64,000 nt of DNA from Malaciobacter pacificus. Lineage in GTDB: Bacteria; Campylobacterota; Campylobacteria; Campylobacterales; Arcobacteraceae. The notes below the pieces were generated by a model. It saw only the letters and a program-made list of their open reading frames with translations. It had not been told where the DNA came from and searched no databases. Shown here in pieces: positions 10,855-40,627 of the stretch. The position numbers and the translations under genes were made by a program. Within the stretch, counting starts at the first letter, position 1. Each line of letters begins with the position of its first letter. Location of the stretch: NCBI RefSeq assembly GCF_004214795.1, contig NZ_CP035928.1, positions 930,001 through 994,000 of the forward strand. The letters run 5' to 3'.

Positions 10855-11733
10855 AGAGTCTAAAGCTCTATCTTCTAGTATTTTGATAGCATCTTTTAGG
10901 TATTTAGTATCTAGATTATACTCTGAAGCTTTATTTAACGCTTTATTAATAATCTCTTCATTTAGAGGTTTATAGGGATTACAAATAATCTTTATAATAT
11001 TTAAGATTTTTGCTTTTTCTAAATATTTCTCATCACAGTTTTCAATATCATCAACATATTTAATTAAATCAATAAAATTCTCATCTAGTTTCCAGTGTTT
11101 GAAGATTAAAGCAGACATTTCTGCAGTCGTAATTCCCATAATATCTTTTTCTATTTGATTGATATTTTTACCTGATTCAAGCTCTTCTTGGAATTGTTCA
11201 ACTAAGTCTTTTTCAATAATTAGCTCTGATAATATTATTTTCCCCATAGTTTGTAAAAGTGCAGGTAGTATTAGCTCATCTCTTAATTCAGGATTAGTTT
11301 TATTTATCCAAAGATTAACTAGATTTACAGATAATATGTTACTCTCTTTTAAATCTTCTGTAGTTATATTATACGGCTTTAAATCACCTACCAAAATATT
11401 TTGAACAGATTCACTTATAGCTACATATAAAGTAAATTTTACACCAAGAAGGTTGATTAGTCTTTTTATTGTCTCTACTTAAGATTTAAAACCAAACATT
11501 GCAGAGTTTGCAACTTTTAACAAAGTACTTACTAAAAATGCATCTTTTTCTAGTATTTCTACAAGCTCTTCAACTTCTTGGTTATCTTTTCTTCTAAAAT
11601 CTTCTATTTTCGTAATTGATTCAGGTAATGGAGGTAGTGAATCAATTTTTTTAATTATATCATCAGTCAAATATTTCCTTTTAACTTGTACAGTATGTAT
11701 ATAATTATATGATAAAGTATCTTTTATTTCCAA
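10852..11733 (-). pseudogene. HDOD-domain protein interrupted by an in-frame TAA
   Basis: The 5' part encodes the start of an HDOD domain (LPPLPESITKIEDF, LLKVANSAMFGFKS). A TAA at 11479-11481 stops it, and the same frame continues VETIKRLINLLGVKF and through the rest of the domain to 10852. HDOD proteins are non-catalytic relatives of HD phosphohydrolases found in signalling. The ATG at 11733 overlaps selB by 29 bases. A TTG at 11668-11670 preceded by AAAAGGAAATAT is a more convincing start and leaves no overlap. This is the second signalling gene in the region with a single nonsense codon. Confidence 0.8.
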
Positions 11734-13537
11734 TTTTTTTAATATCTGAAAAATTATCTAAATAGTCTAAATAAGATATCAGATATTTTCTACTTAACTC
11801 AACTCTTTTTTTGAAATTTGAAATTTCTATATATCCATCTTCTTTTATAATCTCTCTCATAATTTTAATGACTTTATTAAGACTTTCACCATGAATAAAA
11901 AGATTGTGTTGTAGTCTTACGACTTGTTTATTTGAAGTTAGTGATTTAAGTATAGTATCACCAAGTTTTCTATCTATATCTAAATCATCATAGATATTAT
12001 AAGGTGCAGTTGGTTCTATATCTTCTTTTTTTAATCTATTTAGAACTATATCTTTTAAATCTTTTTTTATATCTTGTTTTAAATTTGCACTTTTATACAA
12101 ACTATCTTCTGCTATTAAGAACTTTTCTTTAATTAATTCATTTAAAACTGATTGTATGAAGTTTATACTTGCCCATTTTAATCTAAGATTTATAGATGCA
12201 CTTGAAAGTAGGGCGTATTGATTTTTTGTATAGATATTTTTGATGAAGTCTTTTACTTCATCTTGTGTTTTTAGTGGATAAATTACTAAGTCTTTTTCAT
12301 CAATAAATACATTATCAAGTTTATTTGCAAACTCTATAGCTTGGCTATGACTAAGAGCAAATCTTTGAGTTGATGAAATGATTCCAAGACCTTTTTTATG
12401 TACTTCTAGTAAGACTTTATAAGCACTTACAAAATCATTTTTATCTAAAGCTTCCAAAAGTGATTTTTTCTGTGGTTTTTTCATAGGGTCAATTACTGGA
12501 TTTAAAACTTTTCCACCACATATAGTGTCATTTCCACTTCTTAAAATCACTTTTTCGCCAAAAATTGTATATAACTTTTCATCTGCTTTTAGTGTAGCAT
12601 AACCAGTTTCTTTATCTTGTGTTCCATCAAAAAGTAGAGTTTTTACTTCAACTTTTTTTGCACCTATAAAAAGTGAGTATGTTTGGTTGTGTTTTAGTTT
12701 TTTATCTTTTAGGCAAGTAAAGGCTATGTCTATACCATCAAAACCTCTGATATAACCTTTTTTAGTGATTAAGTCACCTTTTTTGATTTGGTTTATATTT
12801 ACACCTTGAAGGTTTAGGGCTGCTCTATTGGAAATATTTGCTTCCATGACATTTTCATTGTGTACTTGGATGTTTTTAAGTTTTACTTCTTTTTGAATTT
12901 GAGCTATGTAAACTTTTTCATTTAGTTCACAAGCTTTTCCTAAAACAGTTCCTGTTACAACTGTACCTATACCTTTTGGAGAAAAAACTCTATCTACATA
13001 GTATCTAAAGAAGTTTTCTTCACTTTTTGTAGAGTTTTCTATGCTAAATAACTGCTCTTTTAAACTCACGATTGAACTTTCATCATATATTGAAACTGCA
13101 CTTATAAACTTAATCTCAAAGTCAAATTCACTTAAAAACTTTTGGATAGTTTGTTTTTGAGTTTCTAACTCTTCAGAGCTTACTAAATCTTTTTTTGTGA
13201 GAACTACAATAATCTCTTTTAGTCCTAGTAAATTTATGATTTGGATATGCTCTATTGTTTGGGGTTTTATTCCCTCTGCTGCACTAACAACTAACATCAC
13301 ATAATCAAATCCAAAAGCTCCTGCAATCATATTTTTCACTAACTTTTCATGTCCTGGGACATCTATGAAAGCTATGTTTTGATTTGCTCTACTTAAGTTT
13401 GAAAAAGATAAATCTATTGTGATTCCTCTTTGTTTTTCTTCGTTTGTACTATCTCCTTCAAAACCATTTAAAGCTTTGATAAGTGCAGTTTTACCGTGGT
13501 CGATATGACCTGCTGTTCCGATGATGATATTTGACAT
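11705..13537 (-). CDS. selB: Selenocysteine-specific elongation factor SelB
   Basis: 610 aa. The N-terminal GTPase has GHIDHGKTAL (G1), DVPGHEKLVKNM (G3) and TKKD (G4). EF-Tu-like beta-barrel domains follow, then four winged-helix repeats at the C-terminus, which in this family bind the mRNA SECIS hairpin. It delivers Sec-tRNA to in-frame UGA codons. Its ATG overlaps the selA stop by one base (TAATG), so translation is coupled. The clients visible in this window are selD and fdhA, each with UGA followed by a hairpin. Confidence 0.97.
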   Translation of the reverse strand: MSNIIIGTAGHIDHGKTALIKALNGFEGDSTNEEKQRGITIDLSFSNLSRANQNIAFIDVPGHEKLVKNMIAGAFGFDYVMLVVSAAEGIKPQTIEHIQIINLLGLKEIIVVLTKKDLVSSEELETQKQTIQKFLSEFDFEIKFISAVSIYDESSIVSLKEQLFSIENSTKSEENFFRYYVDRVFSPKGIGTVVTGTVLGKACELNEKVYIAQIQKEVKLKNIQVHNENVMEANISNRAALNLQGVNINQIKKGDLITKKGYIRGFDGIDIAFTCLKDKKLKHNQTYSLFIGAKKVEVKTLLFDGTQDKETGYATLKADEKLYTIFGEKVILRSGNDTICGGKVLNPVIDPMKKPQKKSLLEALDKNDFVSAYKVLLEVHKKGLGIISSTQRFALSHSQAIEFANKLDNVFIDEKDLVIYPLKTQDEVKDFIKNIYTKNQYALLSSASINLRLKWASINFIQSVLNELIKEKFLIAEDSLYKSANLKQDIKKDLKDIVLNRLKKEDIEPTAPYNIYDDLDIDRKLGDTILKSLTSNKQVVRLQHNLFIHGESLNKVIKIMREIIKEDGYIEISNFKKRVELSRKYLISYLDYLDNFSDIKKIGNKRYFII

Positions 13538-14883
13538 TAGTTAAATACCTCACAAAGGATAGTTGATAGTTTACTTGCATCATCACTACTTATACTTCTA
13601 AAGTCTAGTAAGACTTTGTCATTTTCTATTCTTGCTATGATGTTGTTTTTTCTAAGTAGTTTTTCTAGTGCATTTGGTTTTAGATTTTTATACTCTAAAC
13701 TAAGTGCCACCGATGGTATCTTTTTATTTGGAGTTGTTCCTCCTCCTACCATCGTACTTGTGTTTATAACTTCACATTTGCAAAGAGATTCAATGGCGTT
13801 TTTCACTTCATTAGCTCTTTGCTCTAAAGTTTTAACAGAAGTATTTAACATCTGTAAAGTTGGTATTGAGTCTAACTCATCTTTTAAGTTAGAGTTTAAT
13901 GTATCTTCTAAAATAGCTAGAGTGATTTTATCAACTCTTAGCATTCTTAATAGTTGGTTTTTCTTGATTTTTTCTATTAGTTCTTTTTTACCTATTATGA
14001 TACCTGCTTGTACACTTCCTAGAAGTTTATCCCCTGAGAAGCTTAGAAGCGATGGATTGTATTTCATAAGCTCTTTTATAGATGGCTCACCACTGCTTAG
14101 ATTATATGGTAAATCTATCATATGACCACTTCCCATGTCGTAGTAATCTATCACACCATTTTCTTGTGCAGTTTTTACTATATCTTCAAAATCAACTTCA
14201 CTACTAAAGCCTTCTATTGAGTAGTTTGATTTATGTACTTTCATCAGCATTGAAGTGTTTTCACTAATAGCATTTTCATAATCTCTTAGGTGAGTTTTAT
14301 TTGTAGTTCCGATTTCTTTTAAGATTGCTCCACTTTGAGTCATCACTTCAGGAACTCTAAAACTTCCACCAATCTCCACAAGCTCCCCACGACTTACAAC
14401 TGCTTCTTTTCCTTTGCAAAAAGTATTTAGTACTAAAAACACTGCACTTGCGTTGTTGTTTACTACTATGGAATCTTCACATCCAGTTAGGGCTTGAAGT
14501 GTTTTTACTATGTGTGAGTATCGCTCCCCTCGTTGTCCTTTTTCTAAGTCATATTCTAAGTTGTTGTATGATGTTGCTATATTTATAGCTTTGTTTAGAG
14601 AGTCTTTGTTTATAAGACTTCTTCCAAGATTTGTATGCACTATGATACCAGTTGCGTTTATCACTGTTTGAAGTGATGGAGAGATTTGTTTTTCGTACTC
14701 TTTTATGGTTTGTGATATAAGTAGGTTTTCATCTATTGTTTTTATGTTGTTATTCAAAATATCACTTCTAAGATTTTGTATAATCTCTTTTGAGATTTTT
14801 GTAATAAGTGATTTTGAATATCCATCAAAAGCTTTGTTATTGATAAACTTATCAATCTTAGGAATGGATTTTAGTAAAGTCAT
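13537..14883 (-). CDS. selA: L-seryl-tRNA(Sec) selenium transferase SelA
   Basis: 448 aa, full length for bacterial SelA. It is a PLP enzyme that converts seryl-tRNA(Sec) to selenocysteinyl-tRNA(Sec) with selenophosphate. The pyridoxal lysine lies in SFSGDKLLGSVQAG; other family stretches are NATGIIVHTNLGRS and NNNASAVFL. The start ATG has AAAAGGG upstream. It forms an operon with selB and is divergent from the tRNA-Sec gene 56 bases away, so the whole Sec-insertion machinery except selD is in 3.3 kb. Confidence 0.97.
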   Translation of the reverse strand: MTLLKSIPKIDKFINNKAFDGYSKSLITKISKEIIQNLRSDILNNNIKTIDENLLISQTIKEYEKQISPSLQTVINATGIIVHTNLGRSLINKDSLNKAINIATSYNNLEYDLEKGQRGERYSHIVKTLQALTGCEDSIVVNNNASAVFLVLNTFCKGKEAVVSRGELVEIGGSFRVPEVMTQSGAILKEIGTTNKTHLRDYENAISENTSMLMKVHKSNYSIEGFSSEVDFEDIVKTAQENGVIDYYDMGSGHMIDLPYNLSSGEPSIKELMKYNPSLLSFSGDKLLGSVQAGIIIGKKELIEKIKKNQLLRMLRVDKITLAILEDTLNSNLKDELDSIPTLQMLNTSVKTLEQRANEVKNAIESLCKCEVINTSTMVGGGTTPNKKIPSVALSLEYKNLKPNALEKLLRKNNIIARIENDKVLLDFRSISSDDASKLSTILCEVFN

Positions 14884-18915: not shown

Positions 18916-18936
18916 AAGGAAGTAAAAAACTTCCTT
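18916..18936 (-). terminator. Hairpin at the end of selD
   Basis: Perfect 8-bp stem AAGGAAGT/ACTTCCTT with a five-base T loop on the minus strand, overlapping the selD stop codon. The following U run is weak, so it may be a stability hairpin rather than an intrinsic terminator. Confidence 0.5.
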
Positions 18937-19969
18937 AATGTATTATAATAGGTGTAGCACCTCTAGGGATTACTTCCCCAATAATTGAAGCATAACCATA
19001 AGTTAAGTCTTCCACTTCTTTTATGTACTCTTTTGCATCATTTGCATCCATAGCTATTAAAAGTCCTCCTGATGTTTGAGCATCACAGTACATAGTATAA
19101 CAATCACTCGTAGGACACATGATAGTAGTTTTATCTTTTAGGTGTTTCATATTCTTTTTTGTTCCACCTGGGATTACACCTTCATCTGCTAGGTTTTGAG
19201 CATCAGCCATCACTGGAACATGACCGCAATTAATAGCAAATGATGTGAAATCATTTGTACACTCTAAAGCATGCCCAAGAAGTCCAAATCCTGTGATATC
19301 TGTACAAGAACTTATATCATACTTTCTAAGAAGTTTTGATGGTATGTAGTTTAGTGTTTCCATAACTTTTACTGCTTCATTTTTCGTAGATTCATTTAAT
19401 AAATCACGTTTTATAGCAGTAGTTAAAACACCCATTCCAACAGGTTTTGTAAGAACTAATACATGTCCTATTTTTGCAGTATTATTTCTATATATTTTAT
19501 TAGGATGAACAAGCCCACTAACTGAAAGTCCATAAAACATCTCAGGTGCTTCAATAGTGTGTCCACCCATTAGCAGACCTCCACACTCTTGAATCTTTTC
19601 ATTTCCACCTCGAAGCATCTCTTTTAATACTTCTGTTCCATGGTTAGCTCTATCAAATCCTACGATATTTAGGGCAGTCTTTACTGTTGCTCCCATAGCA
19701 AATATATCTGATAGTGAATTTGCAGCTGCAATTTTCCCATAAACATAGGGATCATCCACAACTGGCGTAATAAAATCAAGTGTTTGTACTAGTGCTTTTT
19801 CATCATCAAGTTTATAAACCGATGAGTCATCACTACTATCAAAACCTACAAGTATGTCATTGTCGCATGGTACTAAGCTAATAATACTTTGTTTAAGATC
19901 ACCCGGACCCAATTTAGCAGCTCAACCAGCAGCTTTGACAAACTTGGTTAATTTATATTCGTCGTTCAT
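18935..19969 (-). CDS. selD: Selenide, water dikinase SelD, itself a selenoprotein
   Basis: 344 aa when the TGA at 19922-19924 is read as selenocysteine (residue 16, context AAGUAAK). That is exactly where other SelD proteins have catalytic Cys or Sec. A frame starting after the TGA would miss the active site. It makes selenophosphate from selenide and ATP for SelA. Family features: LGPGDL, TLDFITPVVDDPY, GGHTIEAPEM, TSGGLL. The ATG at 19969 follows GGAAGAT upstream. A short hairpin 11 bases after the UGA fits a bacterial SECIS. An 18-bp palindrome shared with the fdh promoter region lies 63 bases upstream. Confidence 0.95.
19896..19910 (-). promoter_or_regulatory. Candidate SECIS hairpin in selD
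   Basis: Starting 11 bases after the UGA, GGGTC-CGGGT-GATCT can fold as a 5-bp stem (with two G-U pairs) and a 5-base loop with GGU-type bases. The position matches the hairpin that SelB reads in E. coli fdhF. The stem is weak, so the structure is an inference. Confidence 0.55.
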
Positions 19970-28225: not shown

Positions 28226-31057
28226 ATGTCAGTAAACACATATGAAACTCTAAATGCAAAAGTAGGTAGACGGTCATTTATGAAAATGGCTGCTGTTGCT
28301 TCAGCATTTGGTGTGACATCAGCTTTTGCTAGTACTAACGCAACAAGAGAAGCTACTGAGGAAGAGATAAAAAATCCTTTCCCTGGTTCTAAGATGGTTA
28401 AGTCTATCTGTACGGCTTGTTCTGTTGGTTGTGGAGTTATGGCAGAAGTACAAAATGGTGTGTGGGTAAGACAAGAAGTTGCTCAAGATCACCCTGTATC
28501 ACTTGGAGGGCACTGTTGTAAAGGTGCTGATATGATTGATATGGTTAGATCAGAAGTAAGAGTTAAACACCCGATGGTAAAAAAAGGTGGAAAATGGCAA
28601 AGAATTTCTTGGGATGAAGCGTTAGATAACATTGCTAATAAGCTTGAATCTTTAAGAAAAAATGAAGGGCCAGATGCCGCAATGTTTTTAGGGTCAGCGA
28701 AATTTAATACAGAGCAATCTTATTATTTTAGAAAATTCGCTGCAATGTTTGGAACTAATAATATAGATCATCAAGCTAGAATTTGACATAGCTCAACAGT
28801 TGCCGGTGTGGCAAATACATGGGGTTATGGTGCTATGACAAATTCTTTAGGGGATATTCAAAACACTAAAGCGATAATCATATTTGGTGCTAATCCAGCG
28901 GTTAATCACCCAGTTGGATTCCAACATTTCTTAAAAGCAAAAGAAAGAAATAATGCAAAAATCATTGTTGTAGATCCTAGATTTACAAAAACTGCTGCAA
29001 AAGCAGATTTATATGCACAAATTAGACCAGGTACTGATATCCCATTTATGTATGGAATGTTAAATATCATTTTTGAAAACGGTTGGGAAGACAAAGAATT
29101 CATCAATGATAGAGTTTATGGAATGGATGATATTAGAAAAGAAGCTAAAAATTGGCCTCTTGATAGAGTTGCAGATGTAACAGGTGTAAATGCAGATTTA
29201 ATTATGCAAATCACTAAACTATATGCATCTTCAAATCCAGGAACTTTAGTATGGGCTATGGGTCTAACTCAACATAATAATGGTAGTTCGAATACAAGAA
29301 TTGCTCCAATCGTACAACTTGCTCTTGGAAACATGGGTAAAGAAGGTGGTGGAACAAATATCTTAAGAGGACATGATAATGTTCAAGGTGCAACAGATAT
29401 GTGTTGTTTATCTCATTCATTACCAGGTTATTATGGACTAGCAGATGGTTCATGGAAATATTTTGCAAAAATGTGGAATGTTGATTATGAATGGTTAAAA
29501 GGAAGATTCAAATCTCCTGAATGGATGAATAAAAAGGGATTTACACTAGCTAGATGGTGGGCTGGAGTTCTTGGTGGAAAGCCAGGTGAAGATGCAATTC
29601 ATAATGCTGGAACAAACTTAAAAGCTTTATTTGTTATGGCAAATGGTATTACATCAATTGCACAACAAAAGAAAGTAAAAGAAGCACTTGATAACTTAGA
29701 GTTAGCAGTATTTGTAGACCCATTTGTAAATGAAGGTGCTATTTTAACAGATAAGCAAGATGATGTTTATATTTTACCAGCGGCAACTCAATTTGAAACT
29801 AGTGGTTCAGTTACAGCAACAAATAGATCTGCTCAGTGGAGAGATAAAATTATTGAGCCAATGTATGAGTCAAAAACTGACCATGACATTATGTTTGAAT
29901 TAGCAAAAAGACTTGGTTTCTATGATCAATTAACAGCAGGTATGTTAGTTAGAGAAAACAAAAAAGAGTTTACTTGGCCTGAAGATGCAACAGATGAAAT
30001 TGCAAGAACGATTAAAACAATTGGTTTAACTGGTTGGACGGCTGAAAGATTAAAAAAACATCAGAAAAACTGGCACATGTTTGATGAAGTATCTATGAGA
30101 GGATATGGAGAAATGGCTGGTGAGTACTATGGTTTACCATGGCCTTGTTGGACTGAAGCTCATAGTGGATCTCCTATTTTGTATAACATCAACAGAAAAG
30201 TATCTGAAGGTGGTATGGGATTCAGAAATAGATTTGGATTAGAGCACGATGGTGTTTCTCAATTAGCTGCTAAGGGAAGTGCTCCAAAAGGAAGTGCTAA
30301 TCCAGATGGTTATCCTGAGATTACTAGAGACAATATCGAAGAAGTTTTAGGAATCAAGTTAACTGAAGAAGAGAAAAAGAAAATAGGTAAAAACTGGAAA
30401 GTTGATACATCAAATATTATTGCTGAAAAATGTATGGAAAGAGGAATTGCTCCTTATGGAAATGCTAGAGCTAGAGCTAAAGTTTGGACATTTGCAGACC
30501 CAATTCCATTACATAGAGAGCCATTACACTCTCCAAGAACAGATTTAGTTAAACAGTACCCATCGTTTGCTGATAAAAAAGATCACTATAGAGTTGATAC
30601 TAGATATGTGTCTGAGCAAACTGCACAAGATTGGGCAAAAGACTTCCCTGTTAACTTAGTTACAGGAAGACTTGTAAATATGAATGGTGCTGGTATTGAA
30701 AATAGAGCTAGTAAATATCTAGCTAAATTAACACCTGAAATGTTCTGTGATATTAATCCTGAACTTGCAGGAAGACATGGTATTAGAGATGGTGCTTGGA
30801 TGTGGATTCACTCACCTGAAGGTAATAAGATTAAAGTAAAAGCTAAGTATTCACATAGTGTATCAGAAGATAGAGTATTCCTACCATTCCACTTTGCTGG
30901 ATTTATGGAAGGTGAGGATTTAACTCATAAGTTCCCAGATGGTACAAAACCTTATGCATCAGGTGAGAGTGCAAATACAGTAACTAACTATGGTTACGAT
31001 ATTGTTACTCAAATCCCTGAAACAAAAGGTGGATTATGTAGAATTGAGCGAGCATAG
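28226..31057 (+). CDS. fdhA: Selenocysteine formate dehydrogenase catalytic subunit
   Basis: 943 aa when the TGA at 28784-28786 is read as selenocysteine (residue 187, context RIUHSS), the metal ligand in FdhN/FdhF enzymes. Before it come a Tat signal (GRRSFMKMAA, residues 14-23) and a 4Fe-4S site (CTACSVGCG, Cys 62/65/69, then Cys 97 or 98). After it are the molybdopterin-binding domains and a C-terminal dinucleotide-binding domain (NLVTGR onward). It oxidises formate to CO2 in the periplasm and passes electrons to FdhB and FdhC. A SECIS hairpin follows the UGA. Linked tupABC suggests the metal is tungsten. Confidence 0.97.
28800..28814 (+). promoter_or_regulatory. SECIS hairpin of fdhA
   Basis: TTGCC-GGTGT-GGCAA is a perfect 5-bp stem with a 5-base GGU-containing loop, starting 13 bases after the UGA. 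This matches the geometry of E. coli fdhF/fdnG SECIS elements recognised by SelB. Confidence 0.85.
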
Positions 31058-32706: not shown

Positions 32707-33501
32707 ATGGAAAATGCCAAATATTTAAAAACAGTAGTAATAGACAAACTTATAGAAAATGAAGCCACTGAGGTTGAAGATGTGACTATTGAAGAAGCAC
32801 GTCTTAACCTTTATTTAAATGGAGAAAAAGCCATATCTATGATGACGATACCAAAAGACCAAGAAGCTCATGCTATTGGTTTTTTGATGAGTGAAAATGT
32901 TATCTCTTCAATTGAAGATATTAATACAATTAATTTAAGTGAAGATGGACTTAGAGTTGATGTAAGTGCAAAGATAAATGAAGAGTCACTAAAACATCTT
33001 TATAAAGAAAAAACACTAACAAGTGGATGTGGTGGAGGAGTTACTGGAACAGCTGAGTGTGAGCTTGAAATACCATTTAATCAAACAGCTTTTAAAGTAA
33101 AGCCTAAAACTATTTTAGATGAGATTAAAATATTTTATAAAGAGAGTGAACTATATAACTTAACTGGTTGTGTTCATAAAGCAATGATTTATTTACTTGA
33201 TGGAACAACTATAACAGCAGAAGATATTGGAAGACATAATGCAATTGATAAAGCTATTGGAAAGTGTAAATTAGCTGGACTTGATACTACAAAATCGATT
33301 CTTTTTGTAAGTGGCAGATTAAGTTCAGAAATGGTTACAAAAGCAGTGATGCATAGAGTTCCAATAGTTGTGTCAAGAACAGCTCCAACATATCTTGGAG
33401 TTCAAACAGCTCATAAACATGGAATTACTCTTATTGGTTTTGCAAGGGGTAGAAAAATGAATTTATATACTCATAGCGGAAGGATAGATTTAGATGTCTA
33501 G
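32707..33501 (+). CDS. fdhD: Sulfur carrier FdhD
   Basis: 264 aa. FdhD passes sulfur from a cysteine desulfurase to the metal cofactor of formate dehydrogenase. Family motifs: IGFLMSENVI, TSGCGGG (Cys 108), ALYLDG-like YLLDGTTITAEDIGRHNAIDKAIG, and ILFVSGRLSSEMV. Where E. coli has CxxC this protein has CGGG, so only the first cysteine is kept. Ribosome site AAAGGA. It overlaps the next gene by 8 bases. Confidence 0.95.
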   Translation: MENAKYLKTVVIDKLIENEATEVEDVTIEEARLNLYLNGEKAISMMTIPKDQEAHAIGFLMSENVISSIEDINTINLSEDGLRVDVSAKINEESLKHLYKEKTLTSGCGGGVTGTAECELEIPFNQTAFKVKPKTILDEIKIFYKESELYNLTGCVHKAMIYLLDGTTITAEDIGRHNAIDKAIGKCKLAGLDTTKSILFVSGRLSSEMVTKAVMHRVPIVVSRTAPTYLGVQTAHKHGITLIGFARGRKMNLYTHSGRIDLDV

Positions 33502-33922
33502 TATTGATGATAATGTAAAAATAAAACTTGATTCTATTCAAAAAGAACTGATTTTAACTAACTTAGATGAAGATGGAAAATTATCTTGTTTAAAGGCCTT
33601 TAAAGTATCAAGGTTAATTGGTAGAAAACCAAAAGAGATGAGTGCTATTACAAAAAGTTTGGGTATTAAAATTACTAATTGTGAACTTGGAGTTTTTGGA
33701 AAGTTAAGATTTCAAGACCCTAATATTGAAGTATATAATAGACTAAAACAAAATTATATGGGACACAAAACTTTAGAGTGCAAAGTTTTATGGGATGAAG
33801 CACAAAGAAGTAGTTTAAAAACAGTTGGCTCAACTGTAAAAAATTCTGATATTGATGTTGTTCATTGTCAATTAGGATGTTTTAGAGAGAAAAAAGGTCA
33901 TAAAAATGGAAGTGAAAGTTAA
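33494..33922 (+). CDS. Two-repeat cysteine protein of the fdh block
   Basis: 142 aa; I do not recognise a named family. The sequence is an internal tandem duplication: the first half ends GIKITNCELGVFGKL and the second ends DIDVVHCQLGCFREK, each preceded by a short Cys/Lys/Val-rich strand-helix segment (LSCLKAF and LECKVLW). It is translationally coupled to fdhD (8-base overlap) and to the ModE-like gene (17-base overlap). A role in molybdenum/tungsten cofactor handling or sensing is inferred only from this position. Confidence 0.75.
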   Translation: MSSIDDNVKIKLDSIQKELILTNLDEDGKLSCLKAFKVSRLIGRKPKEMSAITKSLGIKITNCELGVFGKLRFQDPNIEVYNRLKQNYMGHKTLECKVLWDEAQRSSLKTVGSTVKNSDIDVVHCQLGCFREKKGHKNGSES

Positions 33923-34280
33923 AGTCTGGATTGAAGATGATAACAGAAATCTTGTTTTTGGAAGTGGAAAAAATGAGATTTTAAAATATGTTGAGTTAAC
34001 TGGTTCGATTTCAAAAGCAGCTACAAAAGCTGGAATGAACTATAAAAAAGCTTGGAGTCATATTCAAGTTTTAGAAAATTATATTGAAGATAAATTAGTT
34101 ATTACAAAAAAGGGTAGAGGAGAAGATAGTGGAAGTAAACTAACTCCTAAAGCTAAAGAATTAATTGAACTATATAACCAGTTAGATGAAGATATTAAAA
34201 AATATTCTCAAAAAAGATTTGAAGAGCTATTTTTAAAAAAAGATGAATTAATAAGTTTAAAGGAAGATGATGCTTCATAG
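33906..34280 (+). CDS. ModE-like transcriptional regulator lacking the metal-binding domain
   Basis: 124 aa. The N-terminal winged helix matches ModE (GSISKAATKAGMNYKKAWSHIQVLEN, then VITKKGRGEDSGSKLTPKAKEL). The C-terminal TOBE/Mop domains that bind molybdate or tungstate in E. coli ModE are absent; a short charged helix ends the protein. It probably controls cofactor or uptake genes. Two related palindromes lie before fdhD and just after this gene and are candidate operators. The start overlaps the upstream gene. Confidence 0.85.
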   Translation: MEVKVKVWIEDDNRNLVFGSGKNEILKYVELTGSISKAATKAGMNYKKAWSHIQVLENYIEDKLVITKKGRGEDSGSKLTPKAKELIELYNQLDEDIKKYSQKRFEELFLKKDELISLKEDDAS

Positions 34281-35256
34281 TTTTAATGCTTTGCAATATA
34301 GAAATATGCAAAATTTGCATATAAGTGAGGAAAATTCTCTTAGTGTTTTAAAAAACAATGAACAATATTTATCTTTAGAAAAAAACTTTTTAGACAAGTT
34401 TGGATTTGAAAGTTTAAACTACTTTTCTTTTAGTAGTGAGGGTTTTTTATCACTATTTTTAAAACTTTCTAAAAAAGGAAAAATTGCACTTAGTCTTGGA
34501 GAATCACAAGCTTTAATTGATGCAGCATTAGTTTTTGAAGAGCTTGGATTTGAGATAGTTTATATTCCACTTTTAAAAGATGGAAGTGTTGATTATGAGT
34601 TTATAAAAACTTTAGAAGTTGATTTTATATTTCTTAGTTCTTATGTGATGGATACATTTTTAAAGACTGATTTAGAAAAAATCAAAACACTTTGTAGTGC
34701 AAAAATCATCTCAAATGCAAGTGCAAATTTTGATGAAAATTCTGATGTGATTTATTTTGATGCTTATAAACTAACTGGATTTTTTACTCATTCAATAATA
34801 CTTTTTAATGAGGAGCTATTAGATGAACAATCAATTGGATTTAAAGATTCACTTGCTCTTGAGTTTATATCAAAAGCAATACAAAATTGTACTTTTAACT
34901 TAACTCAAAAAGAGCTATTTAAATCAAAACTAGTAGAGGCTTTTGGAGAAGATATTTACTTCTTTATTGATAATAACAACACTTTAGAGTATTCACTTCA
35001 CTTTGGTTTAAAAGATATAAAAGCAAGAGAGCTTATAAGAACACTTGCCCTTAATGAAATCTTTATCACAAATGGAGAAGGGTGTTCACTAGGACTTTCA
35101 AAACCATCAAGAATAATTCAAGCTATGGGATATGATGAAACTACAAGTAGAAACTCAATTAGTCTAACTTTTACAAAAGAGTATGAAGAAGAAACTATTG
35201 AGAAAATAGTTAAAACAATGGCAAAAAAATATAGACAAATCAAAGTTTTAAATTAA
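34267..35256 (+). CDS. Cysteine-desulfurase-like PLP-fold protein
   Basis: 329 aa, shorter than IscS/NifS (about 400). It keeps a Lys in DAYKLTGFF (K168, at the PLP-lysine position of SxHKxxGP) and a Cys-containing segment near the C-terminus (GEGCSLGLSKPSRIIQAMG, C273), then SISLTF as in IscS SIRxSxG. The conserved His before the lysine is Tyr, and the N-terminal cofactor-binding motifs are weak. It overlaps the ModE-like gene by 14 bases, with AAAGGA upstream. Being next to fdhD, it may be the sulfur donor for FdhD; whether it still binds PLP is unknown. Confidence 0.7.
   Translation: MMLHSFNALQYRNMQNLHISEENSLSVLKNNEQYLSLEKNFLDKFGFESLNYFSFSSEGFLSLFLKLSKKGKIALSLGESQALIDAALVFEELGFEIVYIPLLKDGSVDYEFIKTLEVDFIFLSSYVMDTFLKTDLEKIKTLCSAKIISNASANFDENSDVIYFDAYKLTGFFTHSIILFNEELLDEQSIGFKDSLALEFISKAIQNCTFNLTQKELFKSKLVEAFGEDIYFFIDNNNTLEYSLHFGLKDIKARELIRTLALNEIFITNGEGCSLGLSKPSRIIQAMGYDETTSRNSISLTFTKEYEEETIEKIVKTMAKKYRQIKVLN
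34302..34325. promoter_or_regulatory. Palindrome after the ModE-like gene, copy 2
   Basis: ATATGCAAAATTTGCATAT (34304-34322) is a perfect 9-1-9 palindrome lying just inside the next coding region. It closely matches the site before fdhD. Confidence 0.5.
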
Positions 35257-35265
35257 GGAAATTAG

Positions 35266-36513
35266 ATGAATCAAAAAATGAATTTTTTAGACTTCCCAAA
35301 TGCAGTACAAAAAAGTTTGGAAATGGTAAATCCTATTAGTTTTACTGAAATTATACCAATTAGTGAAGCAATTAATAGAACAATAGCTAAAGACATAGTT
35401 TGTGTAAAAAATTTACCAGCTTTTAATAACTCAGCGATGGATGGTTTTGCAGTAAAATTTAGTGATGCTGGAAAAACTCTAAATATAAATAAAGTTATCT
35501 ATGCAGGTGATAAAGGGGAGGCTGTAAAGGAATCACTTTTGGATAATGGGTGTTATAAAATTATGACAGGTGCAAAAGTACCAAATGATGCTGATACTAT
35601 TATTCCTATTGAGAACTGTTTTGATGTAACTAATAAAACAGTTAGAATCCCTGAAGATATTAAAAAAGGTGCAAACTTAAGATTAAAAGGTGAAGAGCAA
35701 AAAGAAGGAAGTGTATTATTCCAAAAGGGTGAGAGAATAACATCTTCTCATATTACTCTTTTAGCTTCACAAGGTTTGATTATGGTTGAAGTTTACAAGA
35801 AAATCACTATTGCTGTACTTTCAACTGGAAATGAGATTAAGGAGCCTTGGGAAGAAGCTGATGATGAAGAGATTTATAACTGTAATTCTTATGCACTTAT
35901 TTCTCAATTAAAAGAGAAAGGTTTTGATGCAACTTATACAGGGGTAGTTCCTGATAATCTTGAAGAATCAAAGCAGTTTATTAAAAATTTAAAGACTTAT
36001 GATGTGATTATTACAACAGGTGGTATTTCTATGGGGGATGCTGATTTTGTAGGAGAGGCATTTTTACAAAATGGATTAGAAACTTCTTTTCATGGAGTAA
36101 ATATAAAACCAGGGAGACCAATTATGATGGGAACTATGGGTAAAACATCTGTTATATGTCTGCCTGGAAATCCATTGACTGCTATGGTAAATATCTATTT
36201 ATTTGTAATTCCAATGCTAAGAAAATTACAAGGTGATACAAGTATTTATCATACATTTTTAAAAGCTGTAAATAGTAGTGATTTTAAAACTAAAAAGGGG
36301 AGGGTAAATGTAGTTCTAGGAACTATTTTAAACGGAGAGTTTAAAGTAACAAGAAACAATAAATATGGTTCAGGAATGATAACTGCACTGTATGAAAGTA
36401 ATTGTATCTTAGTAACAAATGAAAATACACAAAATATACAGAGTAATCAAGAAGTAAAAGTAATACCTTTTGATTCACAATTTGATAAAAACCAAACAAA
36501 TATATTTAACTAA
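35266..36513 (+). CDS. moeA: Molybdopterin molybdenumtransferase MoeA
   Basis: 415 aa, full length. It inserts molybdate (or tungstate) into adenylylated molybdopterin. Signature stretches: LPAFNNSAMDGFAV, IMTGAKVPNDADTIIP, LRLKGEE, ITTGGISMGDADFV, and IKPGRPIMMGT with CLPGNPLTAMV. It lies between the desulfurase-like gene and tupA with gaps of only 9 and 12 bases. Its location with tup genes suggests it works in a tungsten-loading pathway for FdhA. Confidence 0.95.
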   Translation: MNQKMNFLDFPNAVQKSLEMVNPISFTEIIPISEAINRTIAKDIVCVKNLPAFNNSAMDGFAVKFSDAGKTLNINKVIYAGDKGEAVKESLLDNGCYKIMTGAKVPNDADTIIPIENCFDVTNKTVRIPEDIKKGANLRLKGEEQKEGSVLFQKGERITSSHITLLASQGLIMVEVYKKITIAVLSTGNEIKEPWEEADDEEIYNCNSYALISQLKEKGFDATYTGVVPDNLEESKQFIKNLKTYDVIITTGGISMGDADFVGEAFLQNGLETSFHGVNIKPGRPIMMGTMGKTSVICLPGNPLTAMVNIYLFVIPMLRKLQGDTSIYHTFLKAVNSSDFKTKKGRVNVVLGTILNGEFKVTRNNKYGSGMITALYESNCILVTNENTQNIQSNQEVKVIPFDSQFDKNQTNIFN

Positions 36514-36525
36514 AAGGAGAATTTT

Positions 36526-37341
36526 ATGACAAAAACATTAGTAACATTAGGATTGAGTACATTATTAGTAACAACTCTTATGGCAAAAGATTCACTTATG
36601 ATGGCTACAACTACAAGTACAGATAACACTGGATTGTTAGACTATTTAGCACCAAAATTTGAAAAAGAGACAGGTACAACTTTAAAATGGCTTGCAACAG
36701 GAACTGGTAAAGCACTTAAAATGGGAAGTAACTGTGATGTTGATATTTTATTTGTTCATGCACCTGCTAGTGAGAAGAAGTTTGTAGAAAGTGGTTATGG
36801 TGTTAATAGAAAACAAGTTATGTATAATGACTTTATTATTGTAGGACCAAAAACTGATGGTGCTAAAGTTTCTGGTATGACTCCAAGTGAAGCATTAATG
36901 AAAATTAAATCAGTTGAAGCTAAATTCTTTTCAAGAGGTGATAACTCAGGAACTAATAAAAAAGAGATTGCATTATGGAAAACTGCTTTACAAAAAGCAC
37001 CTGAAAATGCAGCTTGGTATGTACAAACTGGACAAGGAATGCTAAGAACTATCAATATGGCATCTGAAAAAGATGGATACACTATGACTGATAGAGGAAC
37101 TTGGATTAAGTATGAATCTCAAAAGAGAGATAACAATAATATGAAAATTGTAGTTGAGGGTGATAAATCTTTATTTAATCAATACTCTGTTGTAACAATC
37201 AATAAAGATAAATGTCCAAATGTGAAACCAGAACTTGCAACACAATTTACTAACTGGATTGTAAAACCTGAGACTCAAAAAATTATTGCTGATTTTAGAT
37301 TATTAGATAAAGCACTATTTATTCCAAATGCAAATAAGTAA
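36526..37341 (+). CDS. tupA: Tungstate ABC transporter substrate-binding protein TupA
   Basis: 271 aa. A signal peptide ends near LMAK; the mature start SLMMATTTSTDNTGLLDYL carries the TTTS oxyanion motif typical of TupA. FSRGDNSGTNKKE and GTWIKYE continue the family pattern. It binds tungstate with very high affinity in Campylobacter and Eubacterium homologues. AAAAGGAG precedes the start. No modABC is present in the window. Confidence 0.95.
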   Translation: MTKTLVTLGLSTLLVTTLMAKDSLMMATTTSTDNTGLLDYLAPKFEKETGTTLKWLATGTGKALKMGSNCDVDILFVHAPASEKKFVESGYGVNRKQVMYNDFIIVGPKTDGAKVSGMTPSEALMKIKSVEAKFFSRGDNSGTNKKEIALWKTALQKAPENAAWYVQTGQGMLRTINMASEKDGYTMTDRGTWIKYESQKRDNNNMKIVVEGDKSLFNQYSVVTINKDKCPNVKPELATQFTNWIVKPETQKIIADFRLLDKALFIPNANK

Positions 37342-37356
37342 GGAACAGTTTAAAAT

Positions 37357-38052
37357 ATGAATCTATTTACCGATGGTTTTGCTGAAGCAATACAACTGTT
37401 AAGCTCAGGAAATGAGAGTGTGTACTCTGCAATTACTACAACTATAACTGTATCTTCTTGGTCTTTACTAATAAGTTTAATTATAGGTTTACCTCTGGGC
37501 TTTGCCCTTGGGTATTACAACTTTTATGGAAAAAGTGTGCTTAGAACTATCGTTGATACACTACTAGCTCTTCCAACTGTTGTAATAGGACTTATTGCAT
37601 ATACCATGCTTTCACAAGCAGGACCATTTGGTAAATTTGATTTACTGTTTACTCCTCAAGCTATTATTATAGGACAGATAGTTTTAGGTCTTCCTATCAT
37701 AATAGCTTTAACAGCAACTCAAGTAGAAGCAGTGGATAAAAGGCTATATACATCCCTAAAAGGTATGGGTGCAAGTTCATATCAAATATTAGTTGCAACA
37801 CTAGTTGAAGCTAGGTTTGGACTTATGACAGCAGCCATGACTGCATATGGAAGAATTATAACTGAAATTGGTATTTCTATGATGGTTGGTGGAAATATTA
37901 AATATCACACAAGAACTGTTACAACTGCAATCGCACTTGAAACAGGTAAGGGTGAGTTTGTTACAGGTATTGCACTTGGAATTGTTTTATTTGCAGTTGC
38001 ATTGATGGTAAATATTGCACTTTCAGTTTTAAAAAGGAAATGGACACAATGA
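37357..38052 (+). CDS. tupB: Tungstate ABC transporter permease TupB
   Basis: 231 aa with about five to six membrane helices and the ABC permease EAA loop (GMGASSYQILVATLVEARFG). It overlaps tupC by 4 bases (ATGA). Confidence 0.93.
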   Translation: MNLFTDGFAEAIQLLSSGNESVYSAITTTITVSSWSLLISLIIGLPLGFALGYYNFYGKSVLRTIVDTLLALPTVVIGLIAYTMLSQAGPFGKFDLLFTPQAIIIGQIVLGLPIIIALTATQVEAVDKRLYTSLKGMGASSYQILVATLVEARFGLMTAAMTAYGRIITEIGISMMVGGNIKYHTRTVTTAIALETGKGEFVTGIALGIVLFAVALMVNIALSVLKRKWTQ

Positions 38053-39071
38053 GTAGTTTGTATAGTCTTAAAAATATAGAACAATACTATGAAGGTAGAA
38101 GAGTTTTAAATATTCCAAATTTAACTATTAATGAAAATCAAATTGTTGGTTTTTTTGGTCCAAATGGTAGTGGTAAATCTACACTATTTTCTATACTTTC
38201 TTTTATAAATAATCCTAGTAATGGAGAACTAATTTATAAGGGGATTGAAAATAAAAAATTAGATTTAAAAACTAAACAAAGTGTTGTAATGGTTCCTCAA
38301 AATCCTTATTTACTTAAAAGAACAGTTTATGAAAATATTGCCTATGGTTTAAAACTAAGAGGTGAAAAAGAAAATTTAGATGATAAAGTGTTTGAAGCTT
38401 TAAGTGTTGTAGGACTAAGTAATTCATTTGCAAAAAGGAAGTGGAGTCAACTTTCAGGTGGTGAAGCACAAAGGGTAGCCTTAGCAGCTAGACTAATACT
38501 TAAGCCAAAAGTATTGATACTAGATGAGCCAACAAGTGGAGTTGATACGAATTCTGCTCAATTAATAAAAGAGGCGATATTAACTGCAAAACAAGATTAC
38601 AACACAACAATATTTATCTCAAGTCATGACCATAATTGGTTAAATCATATTTGTGATAAAAAAGTAGCTCTTTTCCAAGGTAACCTAATAGAAAGTAGCA
38701 GTGTAAATCTACTTTTTGCTCCGTGGAGTAAAAATGAAAATCAAAACTTAGTAAAAGAGTTTATTGATGGACAAAAACTAGAAATCCAAAATAGTTTTGA
38801 TAAGAAAAGAGATTCAATAGCTATGATAAATAGTGATGATATAACTATATGTAGAGTAGATTGTGAAGAGTTTAATAGTGGTAATACATTAAAAGGTATT
38901 ATTGATTCTATTCATCAAATAAATGGTGGTGTTAAACTATTGGTACAGTTTGCTATTTGTGGAATTAGTTTTAATTGTAAAATAACAAGAGAGTACATGC
39001 AAGAACAAAGACTTTTACCAGGTGATGAGGTTAATATAAATATCAATACACAAAATGTATGTTGGATTTAA
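38049..39071 (+). CDS. tupC: Tungstate ABC transporter ATPase TupC
   Basis: 340 aa from ATG 38049, which overlaps the tupB stop and is better spaced from AAAAGGA than the ATG at 38040. Walker A FFGPNGSGKST, signature LSGGEAQRVALAAR, Walker B LILDEPTSGVD and the switch His in SSHDHNW. A C-terminal TOBE-like domain (LKGIIDSIHQINGG to the end) probably senses oxyanion. It powers tungstate import with TupA and TupB. Confidence 0.93.
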   Translation: MSSLYSLKNIEQYYEGRRVLNIPNLTINENQIVGFFGPNGSGKSTLFSILSFINNPSNGELIYKGIENKKLDLKTKQSVVMVPQNPYLLKRTVYENIAYGLKLRGEKENLDDKVFEALSVVGLSNSFAKRKWSQLSGGEAQRVALAARLILKPKVLILDEPTSGVDTNSAQLIKEAILTAKQDYNTTIFISSHDHNWLNHICDKKVALFQGNLIESSSVNLLFAPWSKNENQNLVKEFIDGQKLEIQNSFDKKRDSIAMINSDDITICRVDCEEFNSGNTLKGIIDSIHQINGGVKLLVQFAICGISFNCKITREYMQEQRLLPGDEVNININTQNVCWI

Positions 39072-39405: not shown

Positions 39406-40602
39406 TCATTTGGAAACACCTAAAGCTAAATTTTCATCAAATTTGGTTTTGTTCTTTAACATTACAAATATTGTTTTTAGAAGTTTATTTGCAACAGCAA
39501 TAACAGCTTGTTTGAATTTTTTACCTTCTTCTCGTTTTTTAGAGAAATAGAGTTTAAATTTTTCACAAGAACGAATAGTACCAATTGCCATTTGCCAAAT
39601 AGTTCTTCTAAGGTTTGCATTACCTCTTTTAGAGATTTTGCCCCTATAGTTGATTGAAGTACCACTTTGTCTAACTGATGGGTCAATTCCTATAAAAGCA
39701 CATAGTTGCTTTACGGAATTAAACTTATCAACAGAGGATACTTCAACCATAAAGTTTTTAGAAGTTACTGCTCCAATTCCTGGTATTGATTGTACTATAT
39801 CAATATCATTGTTTATATCAGTATCTTCTAAAGAGTTTTCCAACTCAGAATCTAGAATAGATAATTCATCTTGAATAGCTATTAATCTTCTAATTTTAGA
39901 AGTTAAAACCTTTTCAAGATATTTATCGGATACGGCGATAGAAGTTTTTGCTAAGGCTAATATATCCTTTGCAGTAATTTTAACTTTATTGCCACTTGTA
40001 TCATCTAAGATTCGTTGGATGGTCTTTTCCCTTAAGTTCCTAATTGCTTTACGGCTAGGAGCTTTAAGGAGCAGATTTAAAATGCTCTTTGTAAATATAT
40101 TTGTGTTCTTTAACAATTCAGGGAATAATTGCACTAAATTAGCTTTTATTTCAGTTTTTAATCTTGCTACATCTTTCGAGAGGTTTTCTCTTTCACGGAT
40201 AAGCGGTCTAATATTTTCAATATTATTAGTACTAGCAAGATGTAAAGATTGATATGATTTTAAACTAAATAGAGCAATTGAAGCTGCATCTTTTTTATCA
40301 TTCTTAGTTTTTCTAAGGGTAGTTGAACCAATAAAACTCTTTATGAGTATTGGATTAATCACTACACACTTAAAACTATTTTCTAATAAAAAAGATAATA
40401 GTGGTAAATGATAAATACCAGTTGCTTCCATTGCTATTAAAAGCTCTTCTTTAGGATATGTGGATAAATACTCTACTAAAGTATCAAATCCATCTCTATT
40501 CATTGTAAGCTTTACTTCTAGTTTAATTTCACCACTATTTTCAAGTAGTGTTAAATCAAAGCTATCTTTAGAAATATCTATTCCTATGAATTGTTTATAC
40601 AT
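39406..40602 (-). CDS. IS110-family transposase (DEDD recombinase)
   Basis: 398 aa from ATG 40602 (AAAGG 8 bases upstream); an in-frame GTG lies one codon earlier. The N-terminal RuvC-like domain has FIGIDISKDSFDL, AMEATGIYHLP and KNDKKDAASIA, giving the D-E-D-D set. The C-terminal Transposase_20 domain has VQSIPGIGAVTS, LCAFIGIDP and RQSGTSINYRGKISKRG with the conserved serine. Intact, so the element may be active. This family uses a bridge RNA to pair donor and target DNA. Confidence 0.95.
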   Translation of the reverse strand: MYKQFIGIDISKDSFDLTLLENSGEIKLEVKLTMNRDGFDTLVEYLSTYPKEELLIAMEATGIYHLPLLSFLLENSFKCVVINPILIKSFIGSTTLRKTKNDKKDAASIALFSLKSYQSLHLASTNNIENIRPLIRERENLSKDVARLKTEIKANLVQLFPELLKNTNIFTKSILNLLLKAPSRKAIRNLREKTIQRILDDTSGNKVKITAKDILALAKTSIAVSDKYLEKVLTSKIRRLIAIQDELSILDSELENSLEDTDINNDIDIVQSIPGIGAVTSKNFMVEVSSVDKFNSVKQLCAFIGIDPSVRQSGTSINYRGKISKRGNANLRRTIWQMAIGTIRSCEKFKLYFSKKREEGKKFKQAVIAVANKLLKTIFVMLKNKTKFDENLALGVSK

Positions 40603-40627
40603 CACAAATACCTTTACAAATGTTATT

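Follow-up and report, generated by a model that had tools for sequence, protein, structure and literature searches.

A protein encoded in the fdhD block of Malaciobacter pacificus is predicted to keep the NifS/IscS fold together with its mobile cysteine loop, but in all likelihood can no longer liberate sulfur from L-cysteine. Its role is probably that of a sulfur hand-over or docking factor dedicated to the maturation of formate dehydrogenase. The gene lies in the window, namely the whole stretch of 64,000 nucleotides of DNA that was analysed. It is tentatively suggested, at somewhat less than even likelihood, that the protein belongs to a pseudo-cysteine-desulfurase family not described before, which has been eroded in two opposite ways and serves as a NifS-to-FdhD transpersulfurase for one clade of FdhDs lacking the CXXC motif.

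The reading frame is uninterrupted and is part of a co-directional block with the order fdhA(Sec)-fdhB-fdhC-fdhD-142-residue protein-modE-pseudo-desulfurase gene-moeA-tupABC (Table 1). Matches in 17 of the 41 genomes of relatives covered in a first scan, the own genome included, and the conserved neighbours place the gene beyond chance. The two short frames between fdhD and this gene overlap, and share 34% and 50% identity respectively with the halves of one 251-residue ModE-type protein, which adjoins fdhD in a Campylobacter-like genome (L127). A 399-residue frame following the fdh/tup block (39406-40605, reverse strand) has the look of an IS110-type transposase, as judged by eye. The SelD of this genome is probably a selenoprotein itself, given the in-frame TGA inside the match. 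The genome also encodes a SUF-type enzyme and a NifS (G000:C1:679549-680646), the latter adjoining a NifU-like gene, these names being assigned by eye.

Table 1. Features of the window discussed in the text, with the basis of each assignment
Feature	Position	Strand	Basis or remark
selB and selA, 20 kb upstream within the window	11705..14883	-	selA by search; selB by likeness
selD	18935-19912	-	SelD match runs across an in-frame TGA
fdhA, two frames joined over the in-frame TGA 28784-28786	28226..31057	+	selenocysteine presumed from the reading frame and known formate dehydrogenases
fdhD, clade with KTLTSGC loop	32707..33501	+	profile searches, FdhD alignment and tree
142-residue protein	33494..33922	+	matches N-terminal half of the Campylobacter-type 251-residue ModE protein
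ModE-type HTH protein, 124 residues	33906..34280	+	matches C-terminal half of the Campylobacter-type 251-residue ModE protein
Pseudo-cysteine-desulfurase, NifS/IscS fold, 329 residues	34267..35256	+	open reading frame, NCBIfam, AlphaFold, structure search
moeA	35266..36513	+	profile searches
tupABC-type tungstate transporter	36526..39071	+	TupA and TupC by NCBIfam, under curated cut-offs

The likeness of this protein to cysteine desulfurases is weak by sequence and strong by predicted structure. The curated NCBIfam scores are not reached for IscS (40.4 bits, E-value 1.8e-10, cut-off 643.2) or for NifS (38.6 bits, cut-off 530.75), a Pfam search with the protein did not find Aminotran_5, and the sequence match in the PDB has an E-value of 3.8e-7. 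The AlphaFold model (pLDDT 88.1) has human Nfs1 as its best Foldseek match (E-value 1.3e-17), and IscS is also matched. The structure comparison with IscS proposed in the first-pass annotation was run with VIA-align and recovers the desulfurase fold, the model superposing on the Archaeoglobus fulgidus IscS (4hvk) with a Z-score of 27.8 at 3.1 A over 315 residues. The model of a member from a second family of genomes, f13, which appears to be Helicobacteraceae-like, has the same fold (pLDDT 91.8, Z-score 29.4), and its only segment of at least three residues with pLDDT below 50 is 282-285, directly after C281. A fold type I, class V aminotransferase fold is thus present in the predicted structures of both branches, with structural matches across the two models at Z-scores of about 24-29 over nearly the whole length, the window protein (329 residues) being 75 residues shorter than IscS (404 residues). 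The first-pass annotation had seen a divergent IscS-like protein in the fdhD block, and this is borne out by the reading frame, the block order, the weak profile match and the strong structural match.

Residue equivalences have been taken from a profile alignment to IscS. The PLP-type lysine and the C-terminal cysteine that had been noted as retained do align with the catalytic residues: K168 (codon 34768-34770, forward strand) corresponds to the PLP lysine K206, and C273 (codon 35083-35085, forward strand) to C328, with a C-x6-P-S spacing that matches IscS. The conserved histidine is indeed missing, Y167 being found at the position of H205 and S80 at that of H104, the histidine above the PLP ring. 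D180 of IscS, which contacts the pyridine N1, aligns with S152 directly or, if the sister branch is used as intermediate, with N150, and neither is an aspartate; S299 occupies the position of R354. H104, D180, Q183, K206 and C328 are reported to be indispensable for the activity of IscS, and an R354K variant to retain full activity (PMC9978102). The missing arginine is only a weak sign, since one NifS-type reference protein (L017) is also without it.

A sample of 347 genomes of the phylum gave 118 matches to the family, 88 of them strong; the other 30 (E-values 1.4e-9 to 8e-4), for the most part short stretches matched within longer frames, were left out before counting and are read as ordinary NifS-type paralogues. 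The strong carriers comprise 29 genomes of the window's own family, Arcobacteraceae (f1), 54 of f13 and five of f16, which is probably Sulfurimonas-like. One Arcobacteraceae record, AH-541-O20, has two family copies (L194, L202) on one contig about 6 kb apart. The 90 members aligned are 36 from f1 and f16 (four of them from the 41-genome scan and outside the sample), referred to here as the window branch, and 54 from f13, the sister branch; the f1 carriers G135 and G337 are outside the alignment. The two branches form one family (hhalign E-value 7.3e-59).

The loop cysteine is kept in all 90 members, as are G276, P280 and S281, and R254 and R295 are kept in 89. The PLP lysine is found in 36/36 sequences of the window branch as against 1/54 of the sister branch. 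At the H104 position all of the window branch (36/36) have S, T, C or P and 46/54 of the sister branch have His, and in the N150 column 33/36 of the former have Asn and 49/54 of the latter Asp; by neither alignment is the D180 position an aspartate in 34 of the 36. The erosion of the lysine in one branch and of the histidine and aspartate in the other are therefore opposite patterns. The equivalents of H104, D180 and K206 occur together in none of the 90 members, and an arginine at the R354 position is likewise found in none. In the same alignment the genome's own NifS retains His, Lys, Cys and Arg at the positions compared, its Asp being in column 152. Since each branch has shed a different portion of the PLP pocket while the cysteine is common to both, the pattern argues for a shared function that requires the cysteine but not PLP chemistry. 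PLP binding by members of the window branch is possible, as K168 is invariant there.

The association of the family with FdhD has been examined from the match lists of the two, tallied by hand. FdhD is found in 175 of the 347 genomes, in 174 above the cut-off; the match in G249 is under the cut-off and excluded from the counts. Genetic linkage to and co-occurrence with fdhD are both found, with exceptions. As many as 85 of the 88 carriers have fdhD. In G008, one of the remaining three, a contig end is 0.4 kb away from the family gene. The other two, G093 and G098, with no FdhD or close formate dehydrogenase, are real counter-examples to a role with FdhD. Conversely, 85 of the 87 fdhD genomes in f1, f13 and f16 carry the family gene; G162 and G256, with formate dehydrogenase and FdhD but no family gene, count against the role. 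The other 87 genomes with FdhD above the cut-off (f6, f9, f10, f15 and f19) have no strong family match, and this presence of FdhD without the gene in Campylobacter-like and other families also counts against it.

In 34/36 loci of the window branch fdhD precedes the gene on its strand, either immediately before it or one to two genes away; at the 35th (L086 in G161) it is adjacent by coordinates and the last locus is at a contig end. The order in the f13 loci read is selA-selB-family gene-moeA, and G194, which appears to be Wolinella-like, has selA-selB-fdhD-modE-family gene-moeA. In G162 (L066) selB and moeA are about 80 bases apart where the relatives carry the gene.

The FdhD sequences themselves divide along similar lines. 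A tree of 75 FdhDs separates, with a support of 100/100, 22 non-carriers from 53 others, the latter comprising 51 carriers with G162 and G256. Two non-carrier sequences (L174, L176), too short or partial, are outside the tree and inside the loop count: the loop KTL[TV][ST]GC is present in 51/51 carriers and in the exceptions G162 and G256, and in 0/24 non-carriers outside the carrier families. The FdhD of G162 has the longest end branch of the tree (1.24 against a median of 0.2). As judged from the tree, the match to an FdhD clade is one deep event and not many independent ones, and a single deep split shows co-inheritance and no interaction. Full co-phylogeny was rejected, the agreement of the trees being only partial; the CCV-type FdhDs are positioned differently in the FdhD and pseudo-desulfurase trees, which counts against the association. 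CXXC is absent from the FdhDs of both clades; the variation among FdhDs without CXXC, including how sulfur reaches them, is reported as puzzling (PMC6239281).

The role as a degenerate desulfurase that has lost its PLP activity, and that either relays persulfide from a genuine desulfurase to FdhD or clamps the two, is given about even chances. C273 would accept a persulfide from NifS or the SUF-type enzyme and would hand it, most plausibly in this direction, to the loop cysteine of FdhD, which would then provide the Mo/W-bisMGD of formate dehydrogenase with its sulfido ligand. Alternatively the pseudo-desulfurase may clamp or dock NifS and FdhD, its presumed partners, together. FdhD of E. coli is reported to obtain sulfur from IscS before sulfuration of the cofactor (PMC10609526, PMC6239281), and that it is served there by IscS alone (PMC6239281) counts against an extra relay protein. 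The first-pass annotation had left the choice between a dedicated donor of sulfur and a non-catalytic adaptor that bridges IscS and FdhD. The link to FdhD is supported by co-occurrence, synteny and the FdhD clade; a PLP-dependent donor is disfavoured, given the His/Asp/Lys set in 0/90 members and the lysine in 1/54 of the sister branch; on these residue patterns the adaptor or relay option fits better.

Were the window branch nevertheless an active PLP enzyme, it would be a cysteine desulfurase that has diverged and is dedicated to FdhD, a reading that the invariance of both K168 and C273 (36/36 each) would favour. It is quite unlikely in view of the lost H104 and R354 positions, the absence of Asp at D180 in nearly all members, the shorter chain and the sister branch, which is without the lysine in 53/54. 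The same cysteine could instead serve a metal centre (Fe-S or Mo/W cofactor) by acting as its ligand or scaffold, and not as a carrier of sulfur. The A. fulgidus IscS, which ranks first or joint first among the structural matches, provides the precedent: it is without the lysine, has no desulfurase activity and donates its cysteine as a ligand to a [2Fe-2S] cluster (PMC7585200). Such a loss of activity therefore occurs, and the precedent also supplies this rival reading. The gene moeA is moreover often the next gene. None of the blocks read contains a recognised IscU-like partner, the family is tied to fdhD more than to MoeA, and we regard a metal-centre role as quite unlikely. A general role in molybdenum cofactor synthesis as the main role was rejected: five genomes (G006, G007, G023, G080 and G205) have MoeA and no close formate dehydrogenase, FdhD or family gene, so the gene does not serve the cofactor in general.

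A further possibility, again unlikely, is a selenium carrier, in which a perselenide on C273 would feed SelD for selenocysteine (in FdhA) or selenouridine. The f13 gene order would suit it, selA being 2.8-4.4 kb upstream in 44/54 loci as counted by hand from coordinates (five are not adjacent and five are without a resolved distance), as would the occurrence of selA, selB and selD all within the window and of selenocysteine lyase among the structural matches. Yet G080 and G205 have SelA and SelD and no family gene, so that selenocysteine does not require it, and SelA is present in Campylobacter-like genomes without the gene. G320 has fdhD and the family gene in one block with a TGA-free fdhA, and a SelA search of this genome gave no match; it keeps a SelD-like gene, which leaves a selenium role weakened but still conceivable. 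These three genomes weaken a general selenocysteine role. The FdhTU proteins were also considered as a replacement in non-carriers and rejected, FdhT being found or missing in both kinds among 28 genomes: matches with E-values below 1e-100 are present in the carriers G010, G012, G346, G350, G036, G148, G156, G259, G103, G182, G096 and G093 and in the non-carriers G136, G270, G162 and G256.

Alternative suppliers of sulfur to FdhD have been raised as a question in the literature (PMC10609526), and the family is a concrete, deletable candidate for the supply to FdhDs without CXXC. If the relay or docking role is true, the family joins the archaeal IscS as an example of a desulfurase fold put to new use, with the PLP chemistry gone and only the loop that carries the sulfur retained. 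The label cysteine desulfurase would mislead annotation. No naming of this family was found in the available text of open-licence PMC papers; the accessible parts of a selenoproteome paper (PMC4607533) do not mention cysteine desulfurase, moeA or fdhD, and those of PMC5322559 do not mention NifS, desulfurase or FdhD.

Compared with the NifS/IscS-type (group I) desulfurases, the family shares the predicted fold over nearly the full length, the position and spacing of the cysteine loop and, in the window branch, the lysine. It differs in that the window branch is without the equivalents of H104 and R354 and the Asp at D180, the sister branch has lost the lysine, and the window protein is 75 residues shorter and far under the NCBIfam cut-offs. 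With the A. fulgidus IscS, which lacks the PLP lysine, it has in common a degenerate active site with the cysteine kept, as well as the structural match; that protein partners IscU on an Fe-S cluster, whereas the family described here goes with FdhD, ModE, MoeA or SelAB. The proposed pathway is that of the E. coli IscS-FdhD transfer, from a desulfurase persulfide to the FdhD loop cysteine and on to bisMGD, but the E. coli FdhD has CXXC and receives sulfur from IscS directly, while in the FdhDs here the motif reads SGCC or SGCG and a further desulfurase-like protein is present. The FdhTU proteins of Campylobacter jejuni are, as judged by eye, TusA/YedE-like and not NifS-like. They too are encoded by formate dehydrogenase accessory genes in the same phylum (PMC4178425), but FdhT is shared by carriers and non-carriers and is thus no counterpart of the family.
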